Of a stretch of 64,000 nucleotides of DNA, positions 314 through 36,818 are shown one piece after another. A model generated the notes under the pieces. The model had not been told where the DNA came from and did not search any database. It was given only the letters and a program-made list of their open reading frames with translations. The translations under genes were made by a program, and so were the position numbers. How positions within the stretch are numbered: the stretch's first letter is position 1; each line of letters begins with the position of its first letter. The DNA comes from Streptomyces fradiae (GTDB taxonomy: Bacteria > Actinomycetota > Actinomycetes > Streptomycetales > Streptomycetaceae): assembly GCF_041270065.1 (NCBI RefSeq), contig NZ_CP065958.1, positions 6,262,001-6,326,000 of the forward strand, read 5' to 3'.

Positions 314-345
314 ACCGTAGGCACGGCGGCTGGACGGGCACTCGA
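314..345 (-). promoter_or_regulatory. SARP-type promoter for the acyl-AMP ligase
   Basis: Read leftward: TCGAGTG, 4 bp, TCCAGCC, 8 bp, TACGGT. The 11-bp repeat period and the 8-bp gap to a -10 hexamer are the geometry known for SARP-activated promoters. This is the best-looking of ten such modules in the window. Confidence 0.65.
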
Positions 346-397
346 CCGGCGCTGGGCCGGGCCGGAGCGGATCGGGGACGTGCGGGGGCTTGCGTCC

Positions 398-613
398 TCA
401 GCGGGGCGCCGTCCAGCCGACCCTCGGGCGCACCCGCCGAGGCGCGCCCCAGGGCGCGCGCGGCGCCCGGGCCGCCGGGTCCTCGGCGTCCTCCGCCGCG
501 GCCGCCGCACGCACCCTGGCCAGCAGGACGGCCGTCAGCGCGGCGAGTTCCACGGGGTCCGGCCGCCCCCGTACGACGACGAAGGCGGGCTGCGTCTCGG
601 TGGTCTCGTCCAT
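398..613 (-). CDS. Acyl-CoA carboxylase epsilon-type small subunit
   Basis: A 71-residue protein with the AccE/PccE pattern: a short acidic N-terminus, FVVVRGRPDPVELAALTAVL, an Ala/Arg-rich stretch, and a Trp near the C-terminus. Epsilon subunits bind and stimulate the carboxyltransferase beta subunit of actinobacterial acetyl- and propionyl-CoA carboxylases, which make malonyl- and methylmalonyl-CoA. No beta or biotin subunit is in the window; they may lie to the left. ATG at 613 has no strong ribosome binding site. A malonyl-CoA supply role is inferred from context. Confidence 0.72.
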   Translation of the reverse strand: MDETTETQPAFVVVRGRPDPVELAALTAVLLARVRAAAAAEDAEDPAARAPRAPWGAPRRVRPRVGWTAPR

Positions 614-852
614 GGGCCCGATGCTGGGTCCGGCGCCTCGAGAAGTCCTCGGGAAGGAGTGGGGGCGGGGGTGGGGGAGAGGCGGTCGAGGGGGGCACGG
701 GATGGCCCGGAGCGGGCCGGCCGAGGCCCGGGGGAGGCTCGGGGAGGCCCCCGTCGGGTGCTCCCGGCGGCGAGAGCGCCCGGTCGCCTGCCGGGCCCGG
801 CAGGGCGGAAGGCCACTCGGCGGACGTGCCGCCCGGCGCCGCCCGGCGGCGC
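614..852. other. Non-coding G-rich spacer
   Basis: About 240 bp between the AccE-like and ABM-like genes. It holds G-rich runs around 650-730 and no convincing ORF, so AccE may be read through from the upstream ABM-like gene or have an unseen promoter. Confidence 0.4.
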
Positions 853-1455
853 TCAGCCGGCGGTCAGCGGGCGGGCCGGGTCCACGGCGACGCGGGCGGT
901 GCCGGCCAGGCCGTCGAGCCGGGTGCGCCAGGGCGCGCCCGCCCGGACCCGCTCGTCGGCCGCGGGGTCGTGCCACCACAGCAGACCGGTGTACGCGTAC
1001 GGGTCGGCCACCGAGCGCAGCAGCAGGCTGCCGCCGAAGGCCTCCTCGGCCACGCAGGTGCCGACCAGCGAGCCGAAGTCCAGCTCGAAGCGGTCCGGGT
1101 CGGCGGTGGGCGCGACCGCGGCCCGCAGCAGGACCAGGCGGGCGGCGTCGGCGGGCGTGCCGTTCGGGGCCATCCGGCCCACGGTGACGAGGAGTTCGGT
1201 CTCCGCGGGCGCGGGCGGCGCCGCCGGCTCCTCGCGTCCGGCCCGCAGCAGCCGGTCGAGGCCGGTCCACTGCTCGACGTGCACATAGGCGCCGGGGCGC
1301 CCGGTCAGGGCGGCGGTCACCTGGGAGACGAAGCCCCGGCGGGACTCCCGGCGCCGGGCGTGGGCGAGCAGGCCGGGCTCGAACTCCCCGGGCGGCGCGG
1401 TGGTGGTGAAACGTCCGATCACGGTCAGTTCCGGCTCACGCTCGCGTGGATACAC
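853..1455 (-). CDS. ABM-like (antibiotic biosynthesis monooxygenase family) protein, two half-domains
   Basis: A 200-residue protein. Residues 5-65 (TVIGRFTTTAP, then YVHVEQWTGLDRLLR) and 80-175 (TELLVTVGRMAP, then DPYAYTGLLWWHD) both look like dimeric alpha/beta-barrel ABM folds of the sort used by cofactor-independent quinone-forming oxygenases and cyclases in aromatic polyketide pathways. The GTG start at 1455 follows a purine-rich GAAGGGGGG site. The gene runs leftward, divergent from the 80-aa protein, under its own SARP-type module (1503-1534). Fold assignment is by pattern only, and an enzymatic or structural role is open. Confidence 0.55.
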   Translation of the reverse strand: MYPREREPELTVIGRFTTTAPPGEFEPGLLAHARRRESRRGFVSQVTAALTGRPGAYVHVEQWTGLDRLLRAGREEPAAPPAPAETELLVTVGRMAPNGTPADAARLVLLRAAVAPTADPDRFELDFGSLVGTCVAEEAFGGSLLLRSVADPYAYTGLLWWHDPAADERVRAGAPWRTRLDGLAGTARVAVDPARPLTAG

Positions 1456-1502
1456 CGCCCGGCCCCCCTTCTCGTCCCGGTGGTGCGCGTGCAGTCCCGG
1501 AC

Positions 1503-1534
1503 ATCCGACCACAGGCTGCTTGAGAACCGCTTGA
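1503..1534 (-). promoter_or_regulatory. SARP-type promoter for the leftward ABM-like gene
   Basis: Leftward: TCAAGCG, 4 bp, TCAAGCA, 8 bp, TCGGAT. The heptamers differ at one position and repeat at 11 bp. The -10 is weak. The start codon lies 48 nt downstream. Confidence 0.5.
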
Positions 1535-1578
1535 GGAGGCCCGCGTTCCCGGGCAGGGCCCGCGCGCCCGAGAGTTCC

Positions 1579-1610
1579 TCGAGGATCCACCGAGCCGCCG
1601 CGGGGACCGT
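1579..1610 (+). promoter_or_regulatory. SARP-type promoter for the 80-aa/ACAD/PPTase/SARP operon
   Basis: Rightward: TCGAGGA, 4 bp, CCGAGCC, 8 bp, GACCGT. It starts the operon that includes the SARP gene itself, which would give positive autoregulation. Confidence 0.5.
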
Positions 1611-1644
1611 GGCCTTCCCGAAGTCTCGGAAGGGAGGGCCCGAC

Positions 1645-1887
1645 GTGCCCGCAACCGGAAACAGCGACGGCGTCGCCACCCGTGTGCTCCTCGGGCGGCT
1701 CGCGCGGTCGGTGTGGACCTCGCTCGTCGCCTACGGCTCCATGTGGGTGCCCGTGGACGAGAACCCGCTCTGGCAGCGCTACCAGCAGGCCATGGCGGAC
1801 GACCCGCGGACCGGAGGTCCGCAGGCCGGAGCCCCGCGGCCCGACGGCGGAACCGATTCTGACCGGAAGACCTCGAGCGCGAATTGA
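1645..1887 (+). CDS. Small 80-aa protein of unknown function
   Basis: GTG at 1645 follows a strong GGAAGGGAGGG site and lies 34 nt after the SARP-type -10. The protein has a central amphipathic segment (VLLGRLARSVWTSLVAYGSM), then a WVPVDENPLWQRYQQAM motif and a charged tail. There is no signal peptide or known domain. It leads an operon with the acyl-CoA dehydrogenase, PPTase, thioesterase and SARP. I do not recognise a family. Confidence 0.6.
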   Translation: MPATGNSDGVATRVLLGRLARSVWTSLVAYGSMWVPVDENPLWQRYQQAMADDPRTGGPQAGAPRPDGGTDSDRKTSSAN

Positions 1888-1937
1888 GCGGTGCCCGCCG
1901 ACACCCGGCGGACGGGGCGGAGGAACGGAGGGATGGC

Positions 1938-3653
1938 ATGACGACGGTGGTGGACCCGGTCGACTCCTCGGAGGTCGCCGTCCAGGAACGCATCGCCCGG
2001 CTCGAACACGAATTCGGCGACCTCGACGACCCCGGAAACCCGCTGGGCGCCCAGCAGTTCCTGGCCGCCGACGAGGAGCGGCGGCTGCTGCCGGCCGCCG
2101 AGCGGCTGCTCGACGCCTTCGGCCTGAACGCCGAGTTCGTGCCCGTCGCCCTCGGCGGCCGGCTCGACCGGCTCGACGTGCTGGCCCGGGTGCTGCGCGT
2201 GGTGTTCCGCCGCGACGCCGCCCTGGGCCTGGGCTACGGCCTCACCTCGTACCTCGCGGCGGTCGGCGTGTGGACGGCCGGCACGCCCGGCCAGCGGCAG
2301 GAGACCGCCGCCCTGCTGCTCGCCCACGGCAGGATGGCCTGCGCCTACCCCGAGCCGCCGCAGGGCAACGACTTCCTGCGCAACCGGCTCACCGCCGTGC
2401 CGGACGGCGCCGGCTACCGCGTCGGCGGCCGCAAGGAGGCCCTCAACAACGGGGCCCGGGCCGGCGCCCTCGTGCTCTTCGCCGACACGCCCGACGGGCT
2501 GAGCGCCCTCCTGACCCCCGGACCCGCCCACCCCGACGGCGCCGGCATCCGGCTGCTGCCGCGCCGCCCGACCACCGGCGTACGCGGCTGCGCCGTCCAG
2601 GGCCTCGCCTTCGACGGGCCCCGGCCGCCCACCGGACGGCTCCTCGGACCGGCGGGCGGCGGCACCCGTCTCGCCGAGCACGTCTTCCCGCTCACCCGCA
2701 GCGCCGGTCTGTCGATGACCCTCGGCTGCGCCGACACCGCCCTGCGCACCACCACCGCCTTCGCCCGCTCCCGGCGCCGCCGCAGCCCCGCCTCGCTGCA
2801 CTCCTCGCGGACCCGCACCGCGCTCGTGAACGCCTTCGCCGACCTGCTGGTGTGCGACTGTCTGTCCCTCGTCGCCACCCGGGCCACGCATGTGCTGCCG
2901 CGCGAGAGCCGGACCCTCGGCGCCGTCGCCAAGTACCTGCTGCCGATGGTCCTCACCGAGACGATGGACGACCTGTCGATCGTGCTCGGCTCCGAGGCGT
3001 ACGCCACCAGCGGCGGCTACGCGATCTTCCAGAAGACCGCCCGCGACCTGCCGATCCTCGGCCTGGGCAGCGCGGGCGCCTCGGCCAGCCGGGCCGTGCT
3101 CGTCGCCCAGCTGCGCCGACTGCCCGCGTTCGGTACGCCACAGGCGCAGGGCGACGCCGAACTCGGCGCCCTCTTCCGGCCGTTCGACGCGGCCCTGCCG
3201 CCGTGCGAGGTCTGGGAGAACGGCCGGCCCGCCGACCGGGACTCGCTGCTCGGCTCCCTGGAGGAGTCGGCCCGGCACGCCGACGGACCGCTCGCCGAGG
3301 CCGCCGGGGTGCTCGTGGCGCAACTGGCCGTGCTGCGCGAGGGCTGCGCCGAACTCGCCGCCCGGCCCGCCGCCGAGCCCCCCGGCCCCCGCGCCCTCGC
3401 CCTGGCCGACCGCTACGCGCTGCTCGTCGCGGGCGCCGCCTGCCTGGGCGTGTGGCGCCACCGCCCGCCCGGCGGCTTCCTGGCCGGCCCGGACTGGGCG
3501 GCCACCGCGCTCACCCGCGTCGCCGGCCGGCTCGACCGCACGGCGGTCCGGATGCCGGAGGCCGCCGCCGACCAGCTGCTCGGCGAGCTCCTTCACCGCT
3601 TCGACGACGCCCGCAGCTACGACCTGTACGCGACCGCGCTCGGCCGCTCGTGA
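1938..3653 (+). CDS. Acyl-CoA dehydrogenase family protein
   Basis: 571 residues with acyl-CoA dehydrogenase architecture: an N-terminal helical domain, a middle beta region (MACAYPEPPQGNDFLRNRLT, then GGRKEALNNGARAGALVLF), and C-terminal helices (ETMDDLSIVLGSEAYATSGGYAIFQK). The family uses FAD to form alpha,beta-double bonds in acyl thioesters. At 571 residues it is longer than the usual ~380, resembling the larger members. ATG 1938 is preceded by GGAGG-rich sequence; an in-frame TTG at 1884 overlaps the previous stop and is less likely. A role in starter-unit supply or polyketide oxidation is inferred. Confidence 0.75.
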   Translation: MTTVVDPVDSSEVAVQERIARLEHEFGDLDDPGNPLGAQQFLAADEERRLLPAAERLLDAFGLNAEFVPVALGGRLDRLDVLARVLRVVFRRDAALGLGYGLTSYLAAVGVWTAGTPGQRQETAALLLAHGRMACAYPEPPQGNDFLRNRLTAVPDGAGYRVGGRKEALNNGARAGALVLFADTPDGLSALLTPGPAHPDGAGIRLLPRRPTTGVRGCAVQGLAFDGPRPPTGRLLGPAGGGTRLAEHVFPLTRSAGLSMTLGCADTALRTTTAFARSRRRRSPASLHSSRTRTALVNAFADLLVCDCLSLVATRATHVLPRESRTLGAVAKYLLPMVLTETMDDLSIVLGSEAYATSGGYAIFQKTARDLPILGLGSAGASASRAVLVAQLRRLPAFGTPQAQGDAELGALFRPFDAALPPCEVWENGRPADRDSLLGSLEESARHADGPLAEAAGVLVAQLAVLREGCAELAARPAAEPPGPRALALADRYALLVAGAACLGVWRHRPPGGFLAGPDWAATALTRVAGRLDRTAVRMPEAAADQLLGELLHRFDDARSYDLYATALGRS

Positions 3654-3696
3654 CCGGGCGCTCGTGACCGTACGAGGCGTGACCAGGAGGTACGAC

Positions 3697-4479
3697 ATGG
3701 AACACCCGGTGCGGCATCGCGGGGGCGGGGGCTCGTGGCGGGAGGTGCGGGACGCGGTCGCCGGGGACGGCAGCTGTGTCGTGTACGCGGCCGTCGACGA
3801 CTGGGTGCCGGCGGACCCCGGCGCGCCGGGGCTCGCCGCCGATCTGGGGCCGGACGACCACGCGCGGCTGGTCCGGATGCCCGCCTCGCGCAACCGGGAC
3901 CGGTTCGTCGCCGCCCGGCTGCTGCTCAAGTCGGCGGCGGGCGCGGTGCTCGACGCCCTGCCGCACGAGCTGGAACTGGCGTACAAACCGGGCGGCCGCC
4001 CGTATCTGCGCGGCATCGGCCATCTGGACGTCGGCCTCAGCCACACCGAGGGCCTGCTCGTCGTCGGCCTCACCCGGGTCGGCCGGATCGGCGTGGACAC
4101 CGAGCCGGCCGACCGGCGGATGCTGGAGCTCGGCACCGAGCACCAGGCCTGCACACCGCACGAACTGGCGGCCCTGGAGCGGGTTCCCCCGGAGCGGCGC
4201 AACCGCGAGCTGGTGCGGCTGTGGACGCTCAAGGAGGCCTACAGCAAGGCGATCGGGCAGGGACTCCGGTTCCGCTTCACCGAGTTCGGCTTCGGCCCGC
4301 CCGTCGGGTCGCCCGGCGGCCCCACCCGCATGCTGCGGCCCGACGGCACCCCCGGCGCGGGGCGCGAGTGGACCTTCCACAGCTGGCGGGTCGAGGACGC
4401 CCGCACCGCCTACACCGTCAGCGCCGCCGTCCACGACCCCGGCTTCGACGACCGGGCTCCAGTGCCAGTTGAGCGATGA
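3697..4479 (+). CDS. 4'-phosphopantetheinyl transferase (Sfp type)
   Basis: 260 residues. The magnesium-binding motif GVDTEPADR (Asp134, Glu136) and WTLKEAYSK (Trp176, Lys179, Glu180) are intact, as is the upstream KPGGRPYL/SHTEGL pattern. Sfp-type enzymes move phosphopantetheine from CoA to the serine of carrier proteins, so the likely partner is the cluster ACP (Ser43 of the 6302 gene). ATG 3697 has AGGAGG 8 nt upstream. It is in the same operon as the dehydrogenase. Confidence 0.9.
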   Translation: MEHPVRHRGGGGSWREVRDAVAGDGSCVVYAAVDDWVPADPGAPGLAADLGPDDHARLVRMPASRNRDRFVAARLLLKSAAGAVLDALPHELELAYKPGGRPYLRGIGHLDVGLSHTEGLLVVGLTRVGRIGVDTEPADRRMLELGTEHQACTPHELAALERVPPERRNRELVRLWTLKEAYSKAIGQGLRFRFTEFGFGPPVGSPGGPTRMLRPDGTPGAGREWTFHSWRVEDARTAYTVSAAVHDPGFDDRAPVPVER

Positions 4480-4601
4480 ACGAGGCACTGCGGTGACCCT
4501 CTCCTCGCGCATCTGACCGAAAAGGTGCGGCAAGAAAGCACGGCCACACACGGCCACACGAACCACGGCCACATGCAGCGCGGCGTACGAAGGGGGATCG
4601 G

Positions 4602-5393
<792 letters not shown>

Positions 5394-5420
5394 TCCACGT
5401 AACCCGAAGGAGATCCGCGC

Positions 5421-6245
5421 ATGGACATCAGCGTGCTCGGCCCGTTCCGGGCCACCCTGTCCGGGGTGCCGGTGCACCTCACGGCGGTCAAACCGCGCAA
5501 GGTCTTCGCCCTGCTCGCCCTCCAGGCGGGCGAGCTCGTCTCGGTGGCCTCGCTGGTGGAGGAGGTGTGGGGCGAGCATCCGCCCCGCAGCGTCCAGACC
5601 ACCCTGCAGACGTACATCCTGCAGATCCGCAACGCCATCGGCGCCGCGCTCGGCGACGGCACCGAGCGCGCCGCCCTGCCCAACGGCGTCAAGAGCGTGC
5701 TCGTCACCGAGCCCGGCGGCTACCGCCTCGACAGCCACGGCGGTCTGCTCGACGCCCACGAGTTCGACGCGCTGTCCTCGGCCGGCCACCGGGCCCTGCA
5801 CCAGGGCGACTGGCCCGGCGCCTCCTCGTACTTCGGCCGGGCGCTCGCCCTGTGGCACGGGCGCGCGCTCGCCGACGTCCAGTGCGGGTCGCTGCTCGAA
5901 GTGGAGGCCACCCGGCTCGACGAGTCGCGGATGAGCGTCCTTCAGCGGCGGATCGAGGCAGACCTGAGGCTCGGGCGCCATCATGAGCTGGTCGGCGAGC
6001 TCTCCGGGCTCGCCGCACGTCATCCCCTGCACGAGGCGGTGCACGAGCAGCTGATGCTCGCGCTGTACCGGGTCGGGCGCCGCAGCGACGCCCTCTCCGT
6101 CTACCGGCAGCTGCGCCGCTGCCTCAACCAGAGCCTCGGCCTCGACCCCTCGCCCAGCGTTGAGCACCTCCACCAGGCGGTGCTCGACTCCTCGCCGCGG
6201 CTCGACCTGGACACCGCGGGCGCGCAGCTGGCGAGCGCCAACTGA
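5421..6245 (+). CDS. SARP-family pathway-specific transcriptional activator
   Basis: 274 residues, a small SARP. Residues 1-90 are the winged-helix OmpR-like DNA-binding domain (VLGPFRATLSGVPVHL, LVEEVWGEHPPRSVQTTLQTYI); residues ~95-260 are the bacterial transcriptional activation domain (LLDAHEFDALSSAG, MLALYRVGRRSDALSVYRQLR). SARPs bind heptamer repeats spaced 11 bp and recruit RNA polymerase. Ten matching operators lie at cluster promoters in this window, including the one heading its own operon. ATG 5421 follows GAAGGAG. No TTA codon was seen, so no direct bldA control. Confidence 0.93.
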   Translation: MDISVLGPFRATLSGVPVHLTAVKPRKVFALLALQAGELVSVASLVEEVWGEHPPRSVQTTLQTYILQIRNAIGAALGDGTERAALPNGVKSVLVTEPGGYRLDSHGGLLDAHEFDALSSAGHRALHQGDWPGASSYFGRALALWHGRALADVQCGSLLEVEATRLDESRMSVLQRRIEADLRLGRHHELVGELSGLAARHPLHEAVHEQLMLALYRVGRRSDALSVYRQLRRCLNQSLGLDPSPSVEHLHQAVLDSSPRLDLDTAGAQLASAN

Positions 6246-6246
6246 C

Positions 6247-6286
6247 CCGTATCGACCGACCGTATCGACCGACCCGTATCGACCGA
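6247..6286 (+). repeat. Three-copy direct repeat before the ACP gene
   Basis: The unit CCGTATCGACCGA occurs three times with 0-1 bp between copies, filling the SARP-ACP gap. It could be a regulatory target or a slippage product. Confidence 0.7.
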
Positions 6287-6301
6287 TCGAGAGGAAGCAT
6301 C

Positions 6302-6571: not shown

Positions 6572-6615
6572 CCCCGCCCGAGCGACCCCACCGACCGAGC
6601 AGACGGAGGAGACCC

Positions 6616-7454: not shown

Positions 7455-7469
7455 GTTCTCGTCACATCA

Positions 7470-7515: not shown

Positions 7516-7899
7516 TCAGCCCTGCGCGGCGGGCAGGTCCCGTACGGAGATCTGCGCCACCGTGTTCAGCAGGCTGCGCTGGAAGGTGGCCACGAAGCCC
7601 TCGACCGTGTCCGTGTCCCGCGGCCGGCTCAGATACGGCTTCAGCTTCCGCTCCACCTCGCGCACCCCCGGCTGCGCGGCCATGTGCCGGGCCACGGCCT
7701 CCAGGTCGCCCGTGTACTCGATGACCCGCACCAGGGTGTCGTCGCGCAGGAACACCGCGGTGGCCAGGATCGTGCCGGCCTGCTCGCCCGCGGCGTCCTC
7801 GACCCGGCTGCTGCGCACCCGCTTGAAGTCGCCGAAGATCTCGGCGAGTTCCTTCTCGTACCCCGGCTTGATGTCGTACGTGATCGCTGCGAACGGCAT
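7516..7899 (-). CDS. SchA/CurD-like polyketide cyclase-type protein (copy 2)
   Basis: 127 residues. It begins MPFAAITYDIKPGYEKEL and keeps the pattern of copy 1 (AVFLRDDTLVRVIEYTGDLEAVARHMAAQPGV), so the two are paralogs of about half identity by eye. It is a single-gene leftward unit with its own SARP-type promoter, bounded by the bidirectional terminator. Pentangular polyphenol pathways commonly need two such cyclases for the later rings, which fits here. The ATG at 7899 follows GAGGGAGAGG. Confidence 0.8.
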   Translation of the reverse strand: MPFAAITYDIKPGYEKELAEIFGDFKRVRSSRVEDAAGEQAGTILATAVFLRDDTLVRVIEYTGDLEAVARHMAAQPGVREVERKLKPYLSRPRDTDTVEGFVATFQRSLLNTVAQISVRDLPAAQG

Positions 7900-7955: not shown

Positions 7956-7987
7956 AGGCAAGCCCGACCGGCTCGGGCCCCGCTCGA
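7956..7987 (-). promoter_or_regulatory. SARP-type promoter, leftward half of divergent pair
   Basis: Leftward: TCGAGCG, 4 bp, CCGAGCC, 8 bp, TTGCCT. Its first heptamer is part of a 13-bp inverted repeat (7980-7992 with 8027-8039) shared with the rightward promoter. Confidence 0.5.
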
Positions 7988-8031: not shown

Positions 8032-8063
8032 TCGAGCGGCCCTCCAGACCCCGGTGCGACGTT
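8032..8063 (+). promoter_or_regulatory. SARP-type promoter for the core PKS operon
   Basis: Rightward: TCGAGCG, 4 bp, TCCAGAC, 8 bp, GACGTT, about 31 nt before the GTG at 8095. The heptamer TCGAGCG equals the classic SARP consensus. The inverted 13-bp arms make a symmetrical divergent control region. Confidence 0.62.
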
Positions 8064-25016: not shown

Positions 25017-25048
25017 ACCGTTCCAACAGCGCATCGAGGAAGGCTCAA
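25017..25048 (-). promoter_or_regulatory. SARP-type promoter for ABM3 and the SAM-recycling operon
   Basis: Leftward: TTGAGCC, 4 bp, TCGATGC, 8 bp, AACGGT. A further related heptamer (TTGGAAC) follows at 11 bp, overlapping the -10. Confidence 0.52.
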
Positions 25049-25097
25049 GACCGGAGCCAGCCCGTGTCCCTCACCAGCCTTACCAGCCTCACGAGCC

Positions 25098-25784
25098 TCA
25101 CCAACCGAGCACCTGATCCCCCCGCCGGAACGTGCCGCTCGGGCCGCCGTCCGGCAGCAGCGCGGCGTCCGCGACGTCCACCGCGGCCTCCTCGGCGCTG
25201 CGCCGCCCGCCCGGCATCATCCGGGTCCGGGTCGGGCCCGGGTTGACGGCGTTGACCAGGACGCCGGTGTCCTGCGTGGCGCTCGCGAGCAACTGCGTGA
25301 GCCCGTTGAGGCCCGCCTTGGACACCGCGTAACCGGGGCTGCCGGTGAACAGGCCGTTGCTGAACGAGCCGGTGCCGCTGGACACGAACACCACCCGGCC
25401 CCATCCCCGTTCGACCATCGCGGGCACGAAGGCCTGCGCTACCCGCCACGAGCCGAGCAGATTCACCTCCAGCGTCCGCTCCACCACCTCCACGGGTACG
25501 GACAGCGGATCGCCGGCGCCGTCCTCCAGGAGCACCCCGGCGTTGCCGACCAGGACGTCCACCGGGCCGACGGCGTCCCTGGCCCGCGCGATGCTCTCCG
25601 GGTCCGTCACATCGAGCGCGCAGCCCCGCGCGCCCCGGCCGAGCTCCCGGGCGGTGTCGGCCGCGGCGCGGGCGTCGCGGGCGGTCACCACCACCCGCAG
25701 CCCCCGGCCGAGCAGTTCGGCGGCCACCGCCCGGCCGAGCCCGCGGTTGGCCCCGGTGACGAGTGCCACGCGCCGATCCGTCAT
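25098..25784 (-). CDS. Short-chain dehydrogenase/reductase
   Basis: 228 residues: TGANRGLGRAVAAELL (cofactor loop), DVLVGNAGVLLE, VVFVSSGTGSFS (catalytic Ser), YAVSKAGLNGL (Tyr-x-x-x-Lys) and NAVNPGPTRT. A classical SDR, probably NADP-linked; substrate unknown, likely a tailoring intermediate. ATG 25784 follows GGGGAGAGACG. It is divergent from methyltransferase 1 and upstream of the ABM3/metK operon, which has its own module in the 141-bp gap. Confidence 0.88.
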   Translation of the reverse strand: MTDRRVALVTGANRGLGRAVAAELLGRGLRVVVTARDARAAADTARELGRGARGCALDVTDPESIARARDAVGPVDVLVGNAGVLLEDGAGDPLSVPVEVVERTLEVNLLGSWRVAQAFVPAMVERGWGRVVFVSSGTGSFSNGLFTGSPGYAVSKAGLNGLTQLLASATQDTGVLVNAVNPGPTRTRMMPGGRRSAEEAAVDVADAALLPDGGPSGTFRRGDQVLGW

Positions 25785-25819: not shown

Positions 25820-25851
25820 AGACTGCCGCCCGAGGCTCGACTGCCACTGGT
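25820..25851 (-). promoter_or_regulatory. SARP-type promoter for the SDR gene
   Basis: Leftward: ACCAGTG, 4 bp, TCGAGCC, 8 bp, CAGTCT. The first heptamer is off-consensus. A TTGACA-like hexamer just upstream offers a conventional -35 instead. Confidence 0.4.
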
Positions 25852-25892: not shown

Positions 25893-25924
25893 TCCAGCGG
25901 GCTTCGAGCCGGGTCATGAACCAT
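25893..25924 (+). promoter_or_regulatory. SARP-type promoter for the methyltransferase/LLM/GT operon
   Basis: Rightward: TCCAGCG, 4 bp, TCGAGCC, 8 bp, AACCAT, 37 nt before the GTG at 25961. Both heptamers are close to consensus. Confidence 0.58.
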
Positions 25925-30078: not shown

Positions 30079-30118
30079 GCCTCGTCCCAGGTGCCGCCGG
30101 GCGACCACCCGCCCCACC

Positions 30119-30148: not shown

Positions 30149-30179
30149 GTCGTGCTGACCACGCTCCCAAGGAGGACCC

Positions 30180-31451
30180 ATGACCGCCGAGAGCACCGCC
30201 GCGAGCCCCAGCGCCACTGAGCGCCCTGCCCGGTGCCCCGCCGAAAGCAGCTCGGCCACGTGCCCCCAGCTGACCTTCCCGCTGCCCGTGCCCGACCCGC
30301 TGGAGCCCGCCCCCGCCTACGCCGAGCTGCGCGGCACCGAGCCCGTCGCTCCCGTGACGCTGCCGACCGGGCACCGGGCCTGGCTGGTGACCCGTTACGA
30401 GCACGTACGGCAGGTGCTCGCCGACCCGCGGTTCAGCAAGGCGGCGCTGACCGAGCCCGACGCGCCCCGACTGCTGCCGGTCGCCAAGGGCTCCAAGTCG
30501 CTGTTCACCATGGACCCGCCCGAGCACACGCGCCTTCGCAAGCTGGTCGCCCGGGCCTTCACCGCCCGGCACATCGAGCGGATGCGGCCGCACGTCCAGG
30601 AGATCACCGGCCGGCTGCTCGACACCATGGCCGCCGGCGGCGCCCCCGCCGACCTGATCGCCCACCTCGCCCAGCCGCTGCCGATCACCGTCATCTGCGA
30701 ACTCCTCGGGGTGCCGCTCGTCGACCAGGACCGGTTCCGGGTCTGGTCGGACGTGATGCTGTCGATCTCCGCGCACTCGCCGGACGCGGTGATGGAGGCC
30801 CGGCGCGGACTCAACGGCTATCTCGGCGAGCTGATCGCGGCCAAGGCGAAGGAGCCCGCCGACGATCTGCTCACCCATCTCATCGAGGCCCGGGAGGAGG
30901 ACGGCGACCGGCTCTCCGAGGAGGAGCTGCTGGCCTTCGGCCACACCCTGCTCGTGGCCGGCTACCACGCCACCACCGGCGAGCTGGTCGGCGCGCTGAT
31001 CACCCTGCTGCGCGACCCGGAGCTGTGGGCGCGCCTGGTCGCCGACCGCTCGCTGGTGCCGGGCGCCGTGGAGGAGCTGCTCCGCTTCTCGGTGGCGGGC
31101 GGCGGCGCCGGCGCCATGCGGATCGCGAAGGAGGACGTCGAGCTCGGCGGGGCGGTCATCCGCAAGGGCGACGCGGTCCTTCCGGCGATCACCTCGGCCA
31201 ACCGCGACGAGGAGGTCTTCGAGCGCCCCGAGCGGGTCGACCTGACCCGGCAGAACAACCCGCACCTCACCTTCGGGCACGGTCTGCACCACTGCCTGGG
31301 CGCCCAACTCGGCCGGATGGAGCTCCAGTTGGCCCTGGAGGGCCTGCTCGACCGCTTCCCCGGGCTGCGCCTCGCGGTGCCGACCGACGAGCTGCGCTGG
31401 GTGTCCGGGATGGCCTTCCGCCGGCCTGCGGACCTCCCGGTCGCCTGGTGA
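30180..31451 (+). CDS. Cytochrome P450 1
   Basis: 423 residues. Heme loop FGHGLHHCLGAQLG with Cys372; I-helix LLVAGYHATTGEL, where the usual A-G-x-E/D-T-T has His-Ala before Thr; K-helix EELLRF. The likely role is hydroxylation, ether or methylenedioxy-bridge formation on the polyketide. ATG 30180 follows AAGGAGGACCC. A ferredoxin is encoded with P450 2 at 33948 and may serve both. Confidence 0.93.
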   Translation: MTAESTAASPSATERPARCPAESSSATCPQLTFPLPVPDPLEPAPAYAELRGTEPVAPVTLPTGHRAWLVTRYEHVRQVLADPRFSKAALTEPDAPRLLPVAKGSKSLFTMDPPEHTRLRKLVARAFTARHIERMRPHVQEITGRLLDTMAAGGAPADLIAHLAQPLPITVICELLGVPLVDQDRFRVWSDVMLSISAHSPDAVMEARRGLNGYLGELIAAKAKEPADDLLTHLIEAREEDGDRLSEEELLAFGHTLLVAGYHATTGELVGALITLLRDPELWARLVADRSLVPGAVEELLRFSVAGGGAGAMRIAKEDVELGGAVIRKGDAVLPAITSANRDEEVFERPERVDLTRQNNPHLTFGHGLHHCLGAQLGRMELQLALEGLLDRFPGLRLAVPTDELRWVSGMAFRRPADLPVAW

Positions 31452-31497
31452 CACCGGCCGACAGCGCCCGTACGACATGAACCCGTACGACCCGACT

Positions 31498-31559
31498 CGT
31501 ACGACACGAAGAAGCTCCCCCGTCCCGGCCCGGACGGGGGAGCTTCCTCGTGTCGTACG
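31498..31559. terminator. Long bidirectional terminator
   Basis: A 27-bp stem: outer arms 31498-31509 / 31548-31559 and inner arms 31511-31525 / 31532-31546, with one A/C mismatch and a 6-nt loop, between converging P450 1 and the amidotransferase. Confidence 0.92.
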
Positions 31560-31567
31560 GCTGACCC

Positions 31568-33409
31568 TCAGACCGCCAGGCCGAGTCCGTACGCCGCGAT
31601 CCACTCGTCGAGGTGCAGCGCCATGTCGATCTCGATCCGGGTCAGCCCGGCCGCGGCCGTCGCGTCCCGGCGCACGTCCTCGACGATCGTCGGGTTGAGC
31701 AGCGGAAGCACCGCCGAGTCCCCGCCGGCCACCAGCTTGGCGAACCGCTCCTGGACGTAGCGGTCGTAGGCGGCGTCGTTGGAGATCGGATAGCCCGTCT
31801 TCGGCCGGTTCAGCACCGCCTCCGGCAGCAGGTCCTTCGCCGCCGCCCGCAGCAGGCTCTTCCACTGCCCGTCGAAGGTCTTGAACTCGAACGGCGCGTT
31901 GAACACGTAGTCCTGCAGCCGGTGATCGCAGAACGGCACCCGCACCTCCAGACCGACGGCCATGCTGAGCCGGTCCTTGCGGTCGAGCAGGGTGCGCATG
32001 AAGCGGGTCAGGAAGAAGTACGTCGACTCCCGGAACTGCCGGGCCCGGCCGCTCTCCCCGGGCATCCGCGGCACCGCGGCCGCGGCCTGCCGGTACTGGT
32101 CCGCCTGGTGGCCGCGGACGTCGACCCGGGTGGTGACCGGGCCGAACAGGGCCGGCATGCCGAGGTTGTGCGCCAGGCTCCACGGCAGGGTGCCCGGCTG
32201 CCCGTACTCGGGGTGGTGGAACCACGGATAGCCGCCGAACAGCTCGTCCGCCGACTCGCCGGTCAGCGCCACCGTCGACTGCCCGCGGATCGCCCGGAAG
32301 AGGAGATACAGCGAGATGTCCATGGAACCGGGGCCCGCGATGAGCACCGGCCAGTCGAGCGCGTGGACCACCGCCCGACGGGTTGCGGCGTCGATCATCT
32401 CCGTGTTGCCGAGCAGGATGTGCCGGTGGTCGGCGCCGACGTGGTCGACGACCTGCCGGACGTACGGGGAGTCCGCCGTCGGATGGGTCAGGTCCGGCTC
32501 GAAGTTGTCGAGGTAGCCGACGAAGTCCACGTCGAACGAACGCACCTTGCCGCTGCCGTCCTTCTCCTTGGCGTGCGCGGCGAGCGCGGTCAGCGTGGAC
32601 GAGTCGAGCCCGCCCGACAGCATCGTGCACAGCGGCACGTCGGAGACGATCTGGCGGGTGACGATGTCCTCGAGCAGCTCGCGCACCGTACGGATGGTGG
32701 TGGGCAGGTCGTCCGGGTGCTCGTGCGCCTCCAACTGCCAGTAGCGGCGCAGCCGGTGCCCGTCGCGGGACACCCGCAGCACATGCCCCGGGGCCAGCTC
32801 CGGCATCCCGGAGATCACCCCGGCGCCCGGCGCCTTCACCCCGCCGAACAGCTCGCGAAGCCCTTCGGCGTCGATGGTGCGGCTCGCCCGCGGATGCGCC
32901 AGGATCGCCTTCGGCTCCGAGCCGAAGAGCACCCCGCCGCCCGGAAGCAGCTGGTAGTACAGCGGCTTGATGCCGACCCGGTCGCGCACCAGGAGCAGCT
33001 CCTCGCTGCGCGCGTCCCAGATCGCGAAGGCGAACATGCCGTTCAGCCGGTCGACGAAGGACTCGCCCCACTCCAGATAGGAGCGCAGCACCACCTCGGT
33101 GTCGCTGCGGGTCCGGAAGCGGTGCCCCTTGAGGACGAGTTCCTCCCGCAGCTCACGGAAGTTGTACACCTCGCCCGCGTACGTGAGGGCGGCCTGCACC
33201 CGGCCGCCCTCCTCGGCGACCATGGGCTGCGCCCCGCCCTCCAGGTCGATGATGGCGAGCCTGCGGTGGCCCAGTGCGGCGTGCGGAGCGATCCACACGT
33301 CGCCGGCGTCGGGGCCGCGCAGGGTCATGGTCGTCGTCATCTCCCGGACGACGGCGCCCTCCTGACGCAGATCGGCTGTGAAGTCCACCCAGCCGGCGAT
33401 GCCACACAT
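31568..33409 (-). CDS. Asparagine-synthase-type amidotransferase
   Basis: 613 residues. Class II glutaminase domain with free N-terminal Cys after Met removal (MCGIAGW), and a C-terminal ATP-pyrophosphatase domain with SGGLDSS (265-271) and TGESADELFGGYP. It moves ammonia from glutamine to an activated carboxylate. Homologs in lysolipin-, xantholipin-, fredericamycin- and oxytetracycline-type clusters are linked to polyketide carboxamides, often precursors of an isoquinolone or lactam ring. The glutaminase oxyanion motif reads YAGEVYN, with Ala78 where Asn is usual. It ends the operon from 36611. Confidence 0.9.
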   Translation of the reverse strand: MCGIAGWVDFTADLRQEGAVVREMTTTMTLRGPDAGDVWIAPHAALGHRRLAIIDLEGGAQPMVAEEGGRVQAALTYAGEVYNFRELREELVLKGHRFRTRSDTEVVLRSYLEWGESFVDRLNGMFAFAIWDARSEELLLVRDRVGIKPLYYQLLPGGGVLFGSEPKAILAHPRASRTIDAEGLRELFGGVKAPGAGVISGMPELAPGHVLRVSRDGHRLRRYWQLEAHEHPDDLPTTIRTVRELLEDIVTRQIVSDVPLCTMLSGGLDSSTLTALAAHAKEKDGSGKVRSFDVDFVGYLDNFEPDLTHPTADSPYVRQVVDHVGADHRHILLGNTEMIDAATRRAVVHALDWPVLIAGPGSMDISLYLLFRAIRGQSTVALTGESADELFGGYPWFHHPEYGQPGTLPWSLAHNLGMPALFGPVTTRVDVRGHQADQYRQAAAAVPRMPGESGRARQFRESTYFFLTRFMRTLLDRKDRLSMAVGLEVRVPFCDHRLQDYVFNAPFEFKTFDGQWKSLLRAAAKDLLPEAVLNRPKTGYPISNDAAYDRYVQERFAKLVAGGDSAVLPLLNPTIVEDVRRDATAAAGLTRIEIDMALHLDEWIAAYGLGLAV

Positions 33410-33447
33410 GCCAGCACTCTCCTTCGCTTCGTCCCGGCCGGGGCCGG

Positions 33448-33951
33448 TCAGCCGTCGACACCGAACCGGGTGCCGACCGCCGTGGACTGGACTTCCATCA
33501 GGACCTTGCCGCCGGCGTCGAGGGCCTGCCCCGTGCCGGTCGAGGTGAACGTGCCGTCCGCGCCGAACCGGCCCGTGTGCCGGATCCGCAGCTCGCTCAG
33601 CAGGCCCCCGTCGGCGTCGGAGCGCAGGCCCCGCGTCACGTACACGAAGGCGCCGTCGTCGGCCCACTCCCAGGTGCCGATGCCGGTGTGGGTGTGCCGG
33701 TGGGTCTGCAGGATCAGCTGTCCGTCGGCGCCGAACGAGTAGTGCGCGTGCTCGACGTCCGGTACGCCCTCGATGGTGACGACCACCGACCAGCTGCCGA
33801 CCGGCGAGGGCCGCCGGTTCCCGTGGCGGTGTCCGGGCCCCTGGTCGGGCGCCGCGGCGGCGGCCGGGGCGGCGGCGCCGACGGCGAGCGCCGAACCGAG
33901 GAAGCCGGCCCTTCTGAGCAGGGAACGGCGGGTGCTGCGCTGGGGATTCAT
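33448..33951 (-). CDS. Tat-exported protein of unknown function
   Basis: 167 residues. The N-terminus (TRRSLLRRAGFLGSALAVGAAAP) is a twin-arginine signal with likely cleavage after the AAAAA run near residue 35. The mature part is a beta-rich lipocalin-like pattern: GSWSVVVTIEGVPD, HAHYSFGADGQLILQTH, GTWEWADDGAFVYV, repeated strands. ATG overlaps the ferredoxin stop (ATGA). The position between a P450/ferredoxin pair and the amidotransferase suggests a product-related role such as binding, an extracellular step or self-protection. I do not recognise a family with certainty. Confidence 0.72.
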   Translation of the reverse strand: MNPQRSTRRSLLRRAGFLGSALAVGAAAPAAAAAPDQGPGHRHGNRRPSPVGSWSVVVTIEGVPDVEHAHYSFGADGQLILQTHRHTHTGIGTWEWADDGAFVYVTRGLRSDADGGLLSELRIRHTGRFGADGTFTSTGTGQALDAGGKVLMEVQSTAVGTRFGVDG

Positions 33952-34220
33952 GGGCGTACCTCTCTTGGTTCCGGTGGTCGTACGGCCGCCTCCGGGGCGG
34001 CGAGGTCGACCGGCCGGCCGGTCGACACGTCGGTCAGGGTGATCGCCTCGGCCGGGCAGGCCTCCACGACGTCGATCAGCTCCGGGTCGGGGTCCACCGG
34101 GCCGGCCGCCGGCCGGGTGCGGTGGTCCTCGCCCACGGAGAAGTACCGGGGCGCCGCCGCGGCGCAGATCCCGCTGCGGCGGCAGGTCTTCTGCACCGTG
34201 ATCCGCCACTGCTCGCTCAT
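33948..34220 (-). CDS. Single-cluster [3Fe-4S]-type ferredoxin
   Basis: 90 residues. Ligand pattern CRRSGIC (Cys-x5-Cys) and VEACPAEAI (Cys-Pro) suits a [3Fe-4S] ferredoxin, the usual electron donor of Streptomyces P450s. It starts 13 bp after the P450 2 stop. The C-terminal tail (after residue 70) is Pro/Val-rich and longer than usual. Confidence 0.9.
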   Translation of the reverse strand: MSEQWRITVQKTCRRSGICAAAAPRYFSVGEDHRTRPAAGPVDPDPELIDVVEACPAEAITLTDVSTGRPVDLAAPEAAVRPPEPREVRP

Positions 34221-34233
34221 CGCCGCCCCCGGG

Positions 34234-35436
34234 TCACCAGGTCACCGGCAGATTGACGAGCGCGCGGGCGGTGAGCCCGGTCTTCCAGGTCAGCCAGTCG
34301 GCCGGCACCGCCAGCTTCAAGGTGTCCGGCAGCCGCTCGATCAGCGTGCGCAGCGCGATCTGCATCTCCAGGCGGGCGAGCTGGGCGCCCAGGCAGTGGT
34401 GGATGCCGTAGCCGAAGGAGAGGTGCACGTTCGGGGTGCGCTCGACGTCGAAGCGGTCCGGGTCGGCGAAGACCTCGCCGTCGTGGTTGGCGGAGCCCAG
34501 CGAGGCGATCACGGCCTCGCCCTTCCTGATCCCGGTCTCGCCGATCGTCAGGTCCTCGGTGGCGACCCGCAGCTGGGTGCCGGTGAAGACGAACGGGTTG
34601 AACCGCAGCAGCTCCTCGACCGCGCCCGGGATCAGCTCCGGCTTCTTGCGCAGCAGCGCCAGCTGGTCGGGGTGGTGGAGGAGGGTGAAGAGCGCGGTGC
34701 TCAGCGAGTTGGCGGTGGACTGGTGCCCGACCGTCATGATGATCATCGCGAAGTCGAGCAGCTCGTCCTCGGACAGCTGCTGCCCCTCGTCCCGGGCGTG
34801 CACGAGCACGCTCAGCAGGTCGTCGGCGGGCTCCTCGCGGCGCTGCTCGATCAGGCCCCGGAGGTAGCCGATGATCTCGCCGCGGGCCTCCTTGACCTCC
34901 TCGACGCTGTGCCCGCCGAGGCTGAAGATGACCTCGCTCCAGGCGTGCAGCCGGTCCACGTGCTCGTACGGCACGCCGAGCAGCTCGAAGATCACCTTGA
35001 TGGGCAGGCTGAGCGCGTAGCAGGACATCAGGTCGACCGGCCGCGGCGCGACCAGGACGAGCCGGATCTGCTCCTCGGCCAGCTGCTCGACCCGGGGGCG
35101 CAGTGCCTCGACCCGGCGGGCGGTGAACGCCTGCATGACCAGGCGGCGCAGCCGCGAGTGGTCCGGGGCGTCCATGCCGAGGATGGTCTTCGGGCCGGGG
35201 GTGGTGTTGCCCATCCGGGGCGCGTCCGGCGCCTCGGCGGCGGCCCGGCTGAGCCGCGGGTCGACCAGGGCGGCGCGCACGTCCGCGTAACGCGTCATGA
35301 GCCAGGCCCGGTCGCCGGTGGGAAGGGTCACCCGGGCCACCGGAGCCTGCTCGCGCAGCCGGCGGAACTCCTCCGGCGGCTCGAACGTGTCCGGCGCCGG
35401 GAAGGGGAAGGCCGGCGGTGCCTCGTCGATCGACAT
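34234..35436 (-). CDS. Cytochrome P450 2
   Basis: 400 residues. Heme loop FGYGIHHCLGAQLARLE with Cys348; I-helix IIMTVGHQSTANSL, atypical around the acid-alcohol pair (Gln-Ser-Thr); K-helix EELLRF. ATG 35436 follows GAAGGGAT. It is encoded with its own ferredoxin. Together with P450 1 it supports a heavily oxidised product; the atypical I-helix is compatible with ring-forming chemistry but does not prove it. Confidence 0.93.
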   Translation of the reverse strand: MSIDEAPPAFPFPAPDTFEPPEEFRRLREQAPVARVTLPTGDRAWLMTRYADVRAALVDPRLSRAAAEAPDAPRMGNTTPGPKTILGMDAPDHSRLRRLVMQAFTARRVEALRPRVEQLAEEQIRLVLVAPRPVDLMSCYALSLPIKVIFELLGVPYEHVDRLHAWSEVIFSLGGHSVEEVKEARGEIIGYLRGLIEQRREEPADDLLSVLVHARDEGQQLSEDELLDFAMIIMTVGHQSTANSLSTALFTLLHHPDQLALLRKKPELIPGAVEELLRFNPFVFTGTQLRVATEDLTIGETGIRKGEAVIASLGSANHDGEVFADPDRFDVERTPNVHLSFGYGIHHCLGAQLARLEMQIALRTLIERLPDTLKLAVPADWLTWKTGLTARALVNLPVTW

Positions 35437-35579
35437 CGGTATCCCTTCGGGGTGGTGCACGGATCGAGTGGTGCATGCACGGAACGGGGTGTGGTGCGCG
35501 GAGATGCACGCGCGGGCAGCCCCTCCGCCGCGGGATCGCGGAGGCGCCGCCCGTGACGCGTGGGCCGTGAGAAGCGGCC

Positions 35580-36611
35580 TTACTTCTTGCGGCCGATCAC
35601 GAGGATGTCGTTGGTGTCGAGCAGCTCGGCGGAGGTCTCCGCGAAGCCGGCCTCCGTCATCCAGGCCCGGCAGTCGTCGACCCGGTACTCGGAGCCGCCG
35701 TGGGTGACCACCAGCATGGTGAGGCTGGTCAGCAGGTTGTTCAGCGGGCTGAGCTCGTCGTCCAGCATGGGGTCGTAGACCAGCAGGGTGCCGCCCGGCT
35801 TCAGGGCGTCGAACGCCGACTTGATGAGCTGCTTGCGGCGCTCCGGCGACCAGTCCTCCAGGACGTGCCCGATGATGACGACGTCCGCCTCCGGGACCGG
35901 GTCGGCGAAGAAGTCGCCGCCGTGGAAGGCGATCTTGTCCTTGAGGCCGAGGCCGCCGATGTGGTCCTCGTACGCCGGCTCGACGGCCGGCAGGTCGAAC
36001 ACGGTGGCCTTCAGGTGCGGGTGGGCGTCGATCAGCGTCGCGGCCAGGTTGCCCCGGGCACCGCCGACGTCCGTGACGGTCTTGACCTTGCTCCAGTCGT
36101 ACGCCTTGGCGAGCTCCGGGCCGACCGCCCAGTTGAGCGCGTCCATCATGGCGACGAAGTCCCGCATCTGCTCCTCGGAGCGGTACAGGTGCTTGAACAT
36201 GTTGTCGTCGCCGTGGCCCTCGATCTGGGACTCACCGCTCTTCAGCGACTCGGTGAAGCCGCCCCAGGCGCCGTACAGCACGCTGTTCGAGCGGCTGAGG
36301 AAGCGTCCCACGTACGTCCGCCGGCCCTTGACCAGGTGGGTGTCGGCCGCCTTGGTGTTGCCGTAACGCCCGTCCTCCCGCGCCAGCAGGCCCAGCTTGA
36401 CCAGGGCGTTGAGGAACTCGCGGGCACCGCGCTCGTGGAGACCCAGCTTGCCGCGGATCTCCTCCTCAGTGGCCGGCCCGCTGTCGCTCAGCACGGTGAA
36501 CAGGCCGAGCTCGTTCGCGGTGAGCAGGATCTTCGCGCTGCCGAACGCCATGCCGAGCTGGATGATGCCGTTCAGGTCCAGTGATCCCTGCTCTTCACGG
36601 GTCTTGGTCAT
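35580..36611 (-). CDS. SAM-dependent methyltransferase 2, catalytic His replaced by Glu
   Basis: 343 residues, a paralog of methyltransferase 1: dimerisation region (LGMAFGSAKILLTANELGLF), VTDVGGARGNLA, GDFFADPVPEA. The general-base position reads GHVLEDWS, with Glu252 in place of His, while SAM motifs are intact. This favours a different acceptor, for example C-methylation, or loss of catalysis with a structural role. It heads the leftward operon with P450 2, ferredoxin, the Tat protein and the amidotransferase. Confidence 0.88.
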   Translation of the reverse strand: MTKTREEQGSLDLNGIIQLGMAFGSAKILLTANELGLFTVLSDSGPATEEEIRGKLGLHERGAREFLNALVKLGLLAREDGRYGNTKAADTHLVKGRRTYVGRFLSRSNSVLYGAWGGFTESLKSGESQIEGHGDDNMFKHLYRSEEQMRDFVAMMDALNWAVGPELAKAYDWSKVKTVTDVGGARGNLAATLIDAHPHLKATVFDLPAVEPAYEDHIGGLGLKDKIAFHGGDFFADPVPEADVVIIGHVLEDWSPERRKQLIKSAFDALKPGGTLLVYDPMLDDELSPLNNLLTSLTMLVVTHGGSEYRVDDCRAWMTEAGFAETSAELLDTNDILVIGRKK

Positions 36612-36680
36612 GCGCCGGTTCCTTTCAGGTGGTTCCGGTGGAGTCGAGGCCGCGCCCGGTCTGGTGAGCACGCCCGGTGA

Positions 36681-36712
36681 ACTATCCGGACCGGACCTCA
36701 ATCCGAACTGGA
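36681..36712 (-). promoter_or_regulatory. SARP-type promoter for methyltransferase 2/P450/amidotransferase operon
   Basis: Leftward: TCCAGTT, 4 bp, TTGAGGT, 8 bp, GATAGT. Related heptamers continue the 11-bp period on both sides (TCCATCG at 36723-36717, TCCGGAT at 36690-36684), giving up to four in register. Confidence 0.55.
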
Positions 36713-36786
36713 TTCCCGATGGACCGGCGCTCGCGGCGCCGTGGTCCGCGTCTCGCGAGCGGTGTTCGAGGGAGCGTCGCGGCCGC

Positions 36787-36818
36787 TCAAGTGACACTCC
36801 AGCCGCGATCTCCAAGCT
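36787..36818 (+). promoter_or_regulatory. SARP-type promoter for SDR2/methyltransferase 3/4
   Basis: Rightward: TCAAGTG, 4 bp, TCCAGCC, 8 bp, CAAGCT. It shares the 285-bp divergent region with the leftward module. Confidence 0.52.

Follow-up and report, generated by a model that had tools for sequence, protein, structure and literature searches.

The published rule for SARP promoters, in the available part of PMC10936776, puts 8 bp between the −10 element and the 3′ repeat and spaces the repeats by 11 or 22 bp, and the same part describes a SARP–RNA polymerase complex seen by cryo-EM on the AfsR-afsS promoter of S. coelicolor. Operators with two or three heptamers are on record for the small SARPs ActII-ORF4, DnrI, FdmR1 and CcaR (PMC10972967). 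Cascades of two SARPs within one cluster have been described for CpkO-CpkN and PolY-PolR, and for IsaF-IsaJ (available portions of PMC10972967 and PMC11020959, respectively), and the furaquinocin cluster carries a SAM-recycling cassette of MetK, carbohydrate kinase, MetH, MTHFR and SahH genes (PMC9686526, in part).

The small-SARP promoter type is already known, and the type II polyketide cluster described here, which lies in a 64,000-nucleotide stretch of Streptomyces fradiae DNA (the window), is a further example. As in the small-SARP operators, heptameric direct repeats in two- and three-repeat forms stand before biosynthetic units and overlap the −35 region; the difference is that this cluster repeats a single code, at 11 promoters within the window and one outside it. 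The TCGAG version of the heptamer presumably resembles those of DnrI and ActII-ORF4. The gene order of the furaquinocin cassette is found again inside this cluster, here behind a probable SARP-type promoter, whereas a SARP is named nowhere (0 occurrences) in the available text of PMC9686526. No compound name for the cluster product was found in the literature searched.

We consider it very probable, from sequence, that these sites are SARP-dependent promoters through which a small SARP, once bound, activates most of the cluster's units. Each would offer two, sometimes three, heptamers with a TCnAG core, spaced by one helical turn (11 bp) and standing 8 bp upstream of a poor −10 element; the small SARP would bind them on one face of the DNA, substitute for the −35 element and bring in the housekeeping RNA polymerase. 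One operator code could in this way turn on starter loading (by the acyl-AMP ligase), the core PKS, the oxygenases and the methyltransferases, with the SAM-regenerating operon that would feed them probably under the same code.

Layout and conservation of the promoter sites

The ten 32-bp sites of common 7-4-7-8-6 layout that the first-pass annotation had read by eye were all recovered, each at the position and on the strand given below. Scored on the eight letters of a TC.AG + TC.AG pair, five have a perfect core (345−, 1534−, 8032+, 25893+ and 36787+), four match at 7/8 (1579+, 7987−, 25851− and 36712−) and one, 25048−, at 6/8; two or three of the −10 letters T, A and T (positions 1, 2 and 6) are matched in all ten. 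A gene start follows 31-101 bp past the end of each site, and the gene so faced is taken as the first of its unit, as had been claimed. A matrix was also built from 45 sites in ten relatives, and is somewhat circular because these were first chosen by consensus.

The module is real and is conserved in related species. Six left-hand sites could be followed through as many as 12 named relatives, as could one beyond the window, 8.7 kb to its left, where the promoter of a carboxyltransferase gene has repeats at 0, 11 and 33 (including the 22-bp form). Site 345 (314-345, minus strand; TCGAGTG-4-TCCAGCC-8-TACGGT), the putative promoter of the acyl-AMP ligase unit (the ligase gene followed by AT-ACP, the latter beyond the window's left end), is perfect in all ten relatives whose locus holds the ligase gene, which upholds the placing of the ligase inside the set. 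The spacing of the direct repeats, 11 (or 22) bp, and the 8 bp that separate the 3′ heptamer from the −10 agree with the published rule, as given in the available part of PMC10936776, and bear out the SARP-like phasing first proposed; the exception lies at this ligase promoter, where the gap is 8 bp in six relatives and 9 bp in four (alignment read by eye). Site 1534 (1503-1534, minus), before a 189-aa gene (853-1422), is perfect in 12 of 12 relatives. Site 1579 (1579-1610, plus) faces a predicted unit of an 80-aa ORF, an acyl-CoA-dehydrogenase-like gene and a PPTase gene, and has a counterpart 312-328 bp before the dehydrogenase in nine of 12 relatives (seven at 7/8, two at 6/8), in a tenth in a separate comparison, and in L014 and L020 by eye in the alignment only.

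Among the ten relatives that have the gene in each case, site 7987 (7956-7987, minus; SchA/CurD-like gene 7516-7899) matches at 7/8 in nine and 6/8 in one, and site 8032 (8032-8063, plus; core PKS operon with cyclase, cupin, KSa, CLF and further genes) at 8/8 in five and 7/8 in five. Three 11-bp-phased heptamers at 4458-4500 (plus; TCCAGTG-4-TTGAGCG-4-ACGAGGC-8-GACCCT) precede the thioesterase-SARP1 operon; the matrix scores this site 14.5-22.8 in all 12 relatives, five of them in the training set. A score of at least 13.5 is reached by 10 more genomes out of 11 (SARP identity 61-77%), while L179 (SARP 64-65%) gave no match of at least 12. At three promoters the ten core letters share 94-97% identity with those of the window; a fourth promoter has 77%, and the flanks have 32-48%, figures that are somewhat circular because they are anchored on the best matrix match. 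The genome G024, which lies outside the matrix, carries the module at all six left-hand promoters despite an inverted PKS block.

The five right-hand sites could be compared in two relatives, one of them 98-99% identical at the flanking proteins. Site 25048 (25017-25048, minus) is the probable promoter of an ABM3-MetK-PfkB-MetH-MTHFR-SahH operon, and is kept in L060 (S. roseicoloratus) next to diverged DNA. Site 25851 (25820-25851, minus), a weak candidate before an SDR gene (25098-25784), keeps its heptamer cores in L060. Site 25893 (25893-25924, plus; matrix 16.2, no control match), before an OMT1-Luc1-GT-Luc2 unit that perhaps includes a P450, is kept in L059 and L060. Sites 36712 (36681-36712, minus; OMT2, perhaps with P450 and AsnB genes beyond) and 36787 (36787-36818, plus; SDR3-OMT3-OMT4; matrix 18.2, no control match) are both kept in L058 and L061.

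The gaps between back-to-back sites in the window are 44, 44, 41 and 74 bp; a special helical rule for such pairs was dropped, these gaps varying widely in relatives. TCnAG pairs at spacings of 26 and 37 in relatives were likewise rejected as a new repeat, the listed cases joining boxes of divergent promoters. A perfect pair at 25034+ overlaps site 25048 on the opposite strand and faces no gene start.

Two small SARPs and a proposed common operator code

SARP1 (5421-6245, plus), the candidate activator, is a small SARP of 274 aa with a winged helix (PF00486, residues 24-75, 31 bits), a BTAD (PF03704, residues 110-255, 163 bits) and no other domain; the C-terminal NOD and TPR domains of large SARPs such as AfsR were absent from the domain search of all 274 residues. 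Among solved structures AfsR chains are its best sequence match, with homology across DBD and BTAD, and an alignment shows four of the six conserved AfsR DNA-contact residues (W74, P79, T88 and R94) to be kept. AfsR differs, however, in being a large SARP, in reading CGTT(T/C)ATCG repeats (available part of PMC10972967) where the cluster sites have TCnAG cores, and in its base-reading R92, opposite which SARP1 has Q, as does SARP2 when aligned by eye.

The whole set had been ascribed to the regulon of the SARP at 5421. The common SARP-type module stands, but it does not single out SARP1 as its sole binder, because a second cluster regulator, SARP2, is conserved with almost the same recognition helix. 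All 12 relatives keep this small SARP (L073:11304-12200; 13 kb left of SARP1 and ~8 kb left of the window) at 78-99%. Ten of them have TTLQTYILQLR as its recognition helix and two have TTLQTYVLQLR, compared with TTLQTYILQIR for SARP1 in all 12. The module might therefore be read by SARP2, with SARP1 a downstream or accessory target, a minority possibility to be taken seriously. The module is present at the SARP1 operon and none was seen at SARP2's own promoter, an arrangement for which the two-SARP cascades described in the available parts of PMC10972967 and PMC11020959 are precedents. Against this, the specificities of SARP1 and SARP2 are inseparable by sequence, and SARP1 is located among the sites.

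Our preferred wiring is a cascade from SARP2 to SARP1 to the cluster, both proteins being able to read the code; the thioesterase-SARP1 operon would be a target through its three-heptamer site, by autoactivation or by activation from SARP2. As in the published cascades, there are two SARPs per cluster, one of which probably controls the gene of its partner; here, in contrast, the two share almost the same recognition helix, and the hierarchy is suggested by the operators only. In its fullest form, with two paralogous SARPs sharing one code, SARP2 firing thioesterase-SARP1 and either firing about a dozen units, including the SAM-recycling operon and a POT transporter, the scheme is tentative and on balance doubtful.

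Extent of the site-bearing set

The ten sites had been thought to define the regulon; they form part of a larger set, for the thioesterase-SARP1 operon and the outside carboxyltransferase gene also have sites, and since three heptamers precede its operon the SARP1 gene itself belongs to the set. By matrix, eight of the ten sites are among the window's top ten, with 36712 ranked 18th and 25851 34th; site 1534 drops to 14th when its own promoter is omitted from the matrix. Chance had been suspected at 7987 and 25851. The suspicion fits 25851, which is weak, but not 7987, which is strong and has no match in 400 kb of control DNA.

Could only the strong sites (the five perfect ones, 7987, 1579 and that of the thioesterase operon) be real? 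Sites 25048, 25851 and 36712 would then be chance, and the SAM-cycle operon would lie outside the regulon or be read through from the SDR gene. Site 25048 has only a 6/8 core, and the control holds 71 equal-or-better matches for 25851 (matrix 7.9) and 19 for 36712 (matrix 11.0). By matrix 25851 is weak, and 25048 and 36712 are moderate. All three, however, persist in S. roseicoloratus, the one informative relative; 25048 (matrix 13.6) has just one equal-or-better control match; and the metK of genome G006 (L066) has a 7/8 site of its own. We thus think this restriction unlikely, and the SAM-cycle operon, as first proposed, is probably inside the site-bearing set.

For the exporter/MarR pair and flavin monooxygenase 2 (FMO2), exclusion from the set stands in the window and in one relative, L146, in which no intergenic match of at least 8 lies near the three homologues, but not in some cluster variants: L066 has a site before an exporter and L183 one before an FMO2-like gene (each protein 42% identical). 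In the window the best facing scores are −2.2 for the MFS exporter, 6.6 for FMO2 and 8.1 for MarR, the last not below the 7.9 of site 25851. No facing match above 0 was found in the 101-282-bp gaps inside presumed units (before 13909, 30180, 33448 and 34234), so that the code would reach the genes farther along only through co-transcription.

A POT-family symporter gene (47730-49274) is a tentative member, preceded by a degenerate three-heptamer array at 47642-47684 (plus; matrix 12.0). The array is clear in L147, L149, L150, L152, L153 and L156, readable in the L148 sequence, partial in L151 and weak in L154 and L155; none was seen in L157 and L158, whose POT gene matches are incomplete, and G024 has no match of at least 10.5 before its POT gene. 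At one threshold, POT and SARP1 are both present in the same three of 61 genomes, this one included, and neither in the other 58. In one genome with both, the two genes are 5 Mb apart.

Enrichment over background and wider meaning

Shuffled and same-genome controls, in line with the check originally proposed, show enrichment in cluster intergenic DNA. Its 2954 bp contain six perfect TCnAG-11-TCnAG pairs (five of the original sites and 25034+) and ten pairs of at least 7/8 with a −10 (nine original sites and 652−), compared with shuffle means of 0.055 and 0.097; neither count was reached in any of 1000 dinucleotide shuffles. Control DNA consisted of 60 stretches of this genome, each 20 kb long (~1.2 of 7.9 Mb), seven of which contain other BTAD genes. 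It held two perfect sites among 177,763 bp of intergenic sequence and 14 among 1,022,237 bp of coding sequence. Positions 1-40400 of the window hold six in 3306 intergenic bp and one in the coding part (Fisher 1e-9 against the 60 stretches). The spacing spectrum of TCnAG pairs peaks at 11 bp without selection for spacing, and the last −10 base is T in 33 of 37 pairs without selection for T.

A reader from another family, for example the histidine kinase and LuxR-type response regulator whose genes adjoin the cluster left of the window and recur in relatives, is very improbable. A LuxR-type regulator would be expected to use a palindrome. Direct heptamers at 11 bp, 8 bp above the −10, are moreover the SARP layout in the available part of PMC10936776. 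That by-eye pattern fitting to degenerate heptamers in GC-rich DNA created a module where none exists is scarcely conceivable in view of the shuffles and controls, together with the spacing peak, the matrix ranks and G024.

Binding by a small SARP remains our reading of the sites, from which the regulon of a conserved polyketide cluster can be mapped in testable form. The map predicts the promoters that SARP overexpression should activate, and places SAM regeneration, a supply pathway, on the list of probable targets. It also suggests that two SARPs may read the same code.

A heptamer module in a type II polyketide cluster

Gene prediction and Pfam naming place a type II polyketide cluster in the window, which lies on a 7.88-Mb chromosome. 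Its enzymes comprise an acyl-AMP ligase, an acyl-CoA-dehydrogenase-like protein, a PPTase, a thioesterase (TE), an ACP, cyclases and KSa/CLF; anthrone oxygenases, ABM proteins, a flavin monooxygenase, luciferase-like monooxygenases and P450s; and methyltransferases, a glycosyltransferase and an AsnB-like protein. A SAM-regenerating set (SahH, MTHFR, MetH, a PfkB-type kinase and MetK) and a small SARP gene, SARP1 (5421-6245), were named likewise.

All ten sites listed in the first-pass annotation (345, 1534, 1579, 7987, 8032, 25048, 25851, 25893, 36712 and 36787) are present with the layout described, heptamer-4-heptamer-8-hexamer with the core pair TCnAG-11-TCnAG. Scored on eight core letters, the sites comprise five perfect matches, four at 7/8 and one (25048) at 6/8, and at every site the -10 agrees with T, A, T in two or three letters. 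Within window positions 1-40400, six perfect pairs lie in 3306 intergenic bp (five listed sites and 25034+), against one in about 37 kb of coding DNA; in 60 control stretches of the same genome (1.2 Mb) the intergenic DNA (177,763 bp) holds two and the coding DNA (1,022,237 bp) 14. In 1000 dinucleotide shuffles of the cluster's intergenic DNA the observed counts were never reached; the matches at 7/8 or better with a -10 in these regions number ten, namely nine listed sites and 652-. Perfect pairs are thus commoner in the cluster than in shuffled or unrelated intergenic DNA. The pair at 25034-25065 (+), on the strand opposite to site 25048, faces no gene start and is also readable in the S. 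roseicoloratus sequence (L060).

When the only demand was that two TCnAG words stand 5-40 bp apart on the same strand in intergenic DNA, the window cluster gave ten pairs, six of them at 11 bp. Ten relatives gave 31 pairs at 11 bp, the next commonest spacing being 37 bp (8 pairs); the latter is not a separate repeat, since these pairs span boxes belonging to divergent promoters. Perfect pairs taken irrespective of the -10 number 37, six in the window and 31 in relatives, and 33 of them have T where the last -10 letter is expected.

A matrix was built from 45 sites of relatives (L015-L024), consensus-filtered beforehand, and it places the window above controls: scores of at least 19 occur five times in the window and never in the 1.2-Mb control, and scores of at least 16 nine times against four. 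Left-hand sites were scored with their own promoter excluded, and right-hand sites had no orthologue in the training set. On both strands of a 400-kb control (798,760 positions), equal or better matches number 0 for sites 345, 8032 and 7987, 1 for 4469 (the TE site), 2 for 1579 and 15 for 1534; on the right they number 0 for 25893 and 36787, 1 for 25048, 19 for 36712 and 71 for 25851. Of the two sites doubted at first, 25851 is thus indeed weak, but 7987 is not. A control stretch with another SARP gene carries TTAAGTT-4-TTTAGGC-8-TACGTT (L112:18155, +; score 16.1) 55 bp ahead of a gene, possibly that other SARP's own operator.

Conservation among relatives

Thirteen loci were found, and the 12 named Streptomyces loci with a SARP1 orthologue (83-99%) were used, the thirteenth (35%) being left out; counts cover only loci in which the respective gene was found. 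The acyl-AMP ligase promoter has the module in 10/10 loci, all at 8/8, with the -10 at a distance, judged by eye, of 8 bp in six and 9 bp in four, which bears out the placing of this gene inside the set. The module is likewise found before the 189-aa gene (12/12, all 8/8), the cyclase/KS operon (10/10; five at 8/8, five at 7/8) and the SchA/CurD gene (10/10; nine at 7/8, one at 6/8). Site 1579 is matched in 9/12 relatives (seven at 7/8, two at 6/8), with a tenth from a separate scan, and in L014 and L020 is visible by eye only, in alignment. Identity to the window over ten core letters is 96, 97, 94 and 77% for ligase, 189-aa, cyclase and SchA promoters (9, 11, 9 and 9 relatives, the nearly identical L013 omitted), against 48, 32, 46 and 34% in the flanks, although anchoring each relative on its best matrix match favours the core.

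In G024, a further genome outside matrix training, each of the six left-hand promoters carries the module, with scores of 14.5-26.6; site 1579 has its counterpart there 450 bp ahead of the called dehydrogenase start. The G024 PKS core (L182-L183) is inverted relative to the window, as is the dehydrogenase/PPTase/189-aa block in L015, with modules kept in both.

The right-hand part (25-37 kb) was traced through two proteins, Luc1 and AsnB, whose close matches occur only in Streptomyces sp. SKN60 and S. roseicoloratus (G002), the other ten reaching at most 55%. SKN60 is nearly identical to the window genome and hence uninformative. All five right-hand sites are kept in S. roseicoloratus, where flanking proteins are 88-95% identical and site 25048 adjoins upstream DNA that has diverged from that of the window.

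Extent of the set

Each listed site precedes the presumed first gene of a unit, as had been claimed, and most biosynthetic units have a module 31-101 bp ahead of a first gene, units being judged from gene direction only; should an 80-aa ORF be spurious, the distance to the dehydrogenase becomes 327 bp. Genes 13909, 30180, 34234 and 33448 are preceded by gaps of 101-282 bp in which no facing match scores above 0, and would be covered only if co-transcribed.

The ten-site set is incomplete, two promoters having been missed. The TE-SARP1 operon has three heptamers at 11 bp, TCCAGTG-4-TTGAGCG-4-ACGAGGC-8-GACCCT (4458-4500), partly within the end of the PPTase gene, and this site scores 14.5-22.8 in 12/12 relatives, five of them in the training set. 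SARP1 homologues occur in 19 of 392 genomes searched. Sixteen new loci (L165-L180) include five that duplicate named relatives by coordinates; among the remaining 11 (SARP 61-77% identical), ten have a match of at least 13.5 before TE or SARP, and L179 has none of at least 12. In a more distant cluster family (L173-L178) a second SARP-like gene directly precedes the TE-SARP1 pair, with a heptamer site in between. The other missed promoter belongs to a carboxyltransferase gene beyond the left end of the window (L073); its three heptamers are placed at 0, 11 and 33, and TACGGT follows 8 bp below the third. In 12/12 relatives the third heptamer, as TCGAG or TTGAG, is again followed at 8 bp by TAnnnT; the first two are intact in most relatives and decayed in some (e.g. 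L138, L141, L144 and L145).

The exporter/MarR pair and flavin monooxygenase 2 (FMO2) had been excluded. Best facing scores make this fair for the exporter (-2.2) and FMO2 (6.6) and less sure for MarR (8.1); near the S. roseicoloratus copies of all three there is no intergenic match of at least 8. As a general rule the exclusion fails, since a perfect pair faces an exporter gene in L066 and a match scoring 11.4 faces an FMO2-like gene in L183.

A POT-family oligopeptide:H+ symporter gene (47730-49274) has a three-heptamer array upstream (47642-47684). Both this symporter (E<=1e-150) and SARP1 (E<=1e-85) are present in 3 of 61 genomes, and the other 58 have neither; the two genes are separated by about 5 Mb in G024.

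Candidate regulators and proposed mode of action

Which protein would read these predicted operators? The set had been taken as the regulon of SARP1, but SARP1 is not the sole candidate. A second small SARP, SARP2 (L073:11304-12200, minus strand), is encoded 13.2 kb to the left of SARP1, in the neighbourhood of carboxyltransferase, YcaO-domain and HK/RR genes, and has orthologues (78-99%) in 12/12 relatives. Its recognition helix is TTLQTYILQLR in the window genome and in 10/12 relatives, the remaining two having TTLQTYVLQLR; that of SARP1 is TTLQTYILQIR in the window and 12/12 relatives. Because SARP2 is conserved with a nearly identical helix, the operators are not assignable to SARP1 alone. 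No intergenic match of at least 10 faces the SARP2, YcaO or HK/RR genes in L134-L145, nor one of at least 10.5 in L073.

Operators built of two or three heptamer repeats have been published (PMC10972967), as have SARP cascades (PMC10972967, PMC11020959) and SAM-recycling cassettes within clusters (PMC9686526); our searches of open-licence papers listed no regulon map for this cluster family. SARP1 aligns to AfsR across both domains and, by our reading, the alignment retains four of the six conserved AfsR contact residues named in PMC10936776 (Q48, W74, P79, T88, R94 and K95). We infer from these sequences that the predicted operators are most naturally explained by the AfsR mode, in which case a SARP1-type protein would act at these promoters as AfsR does.
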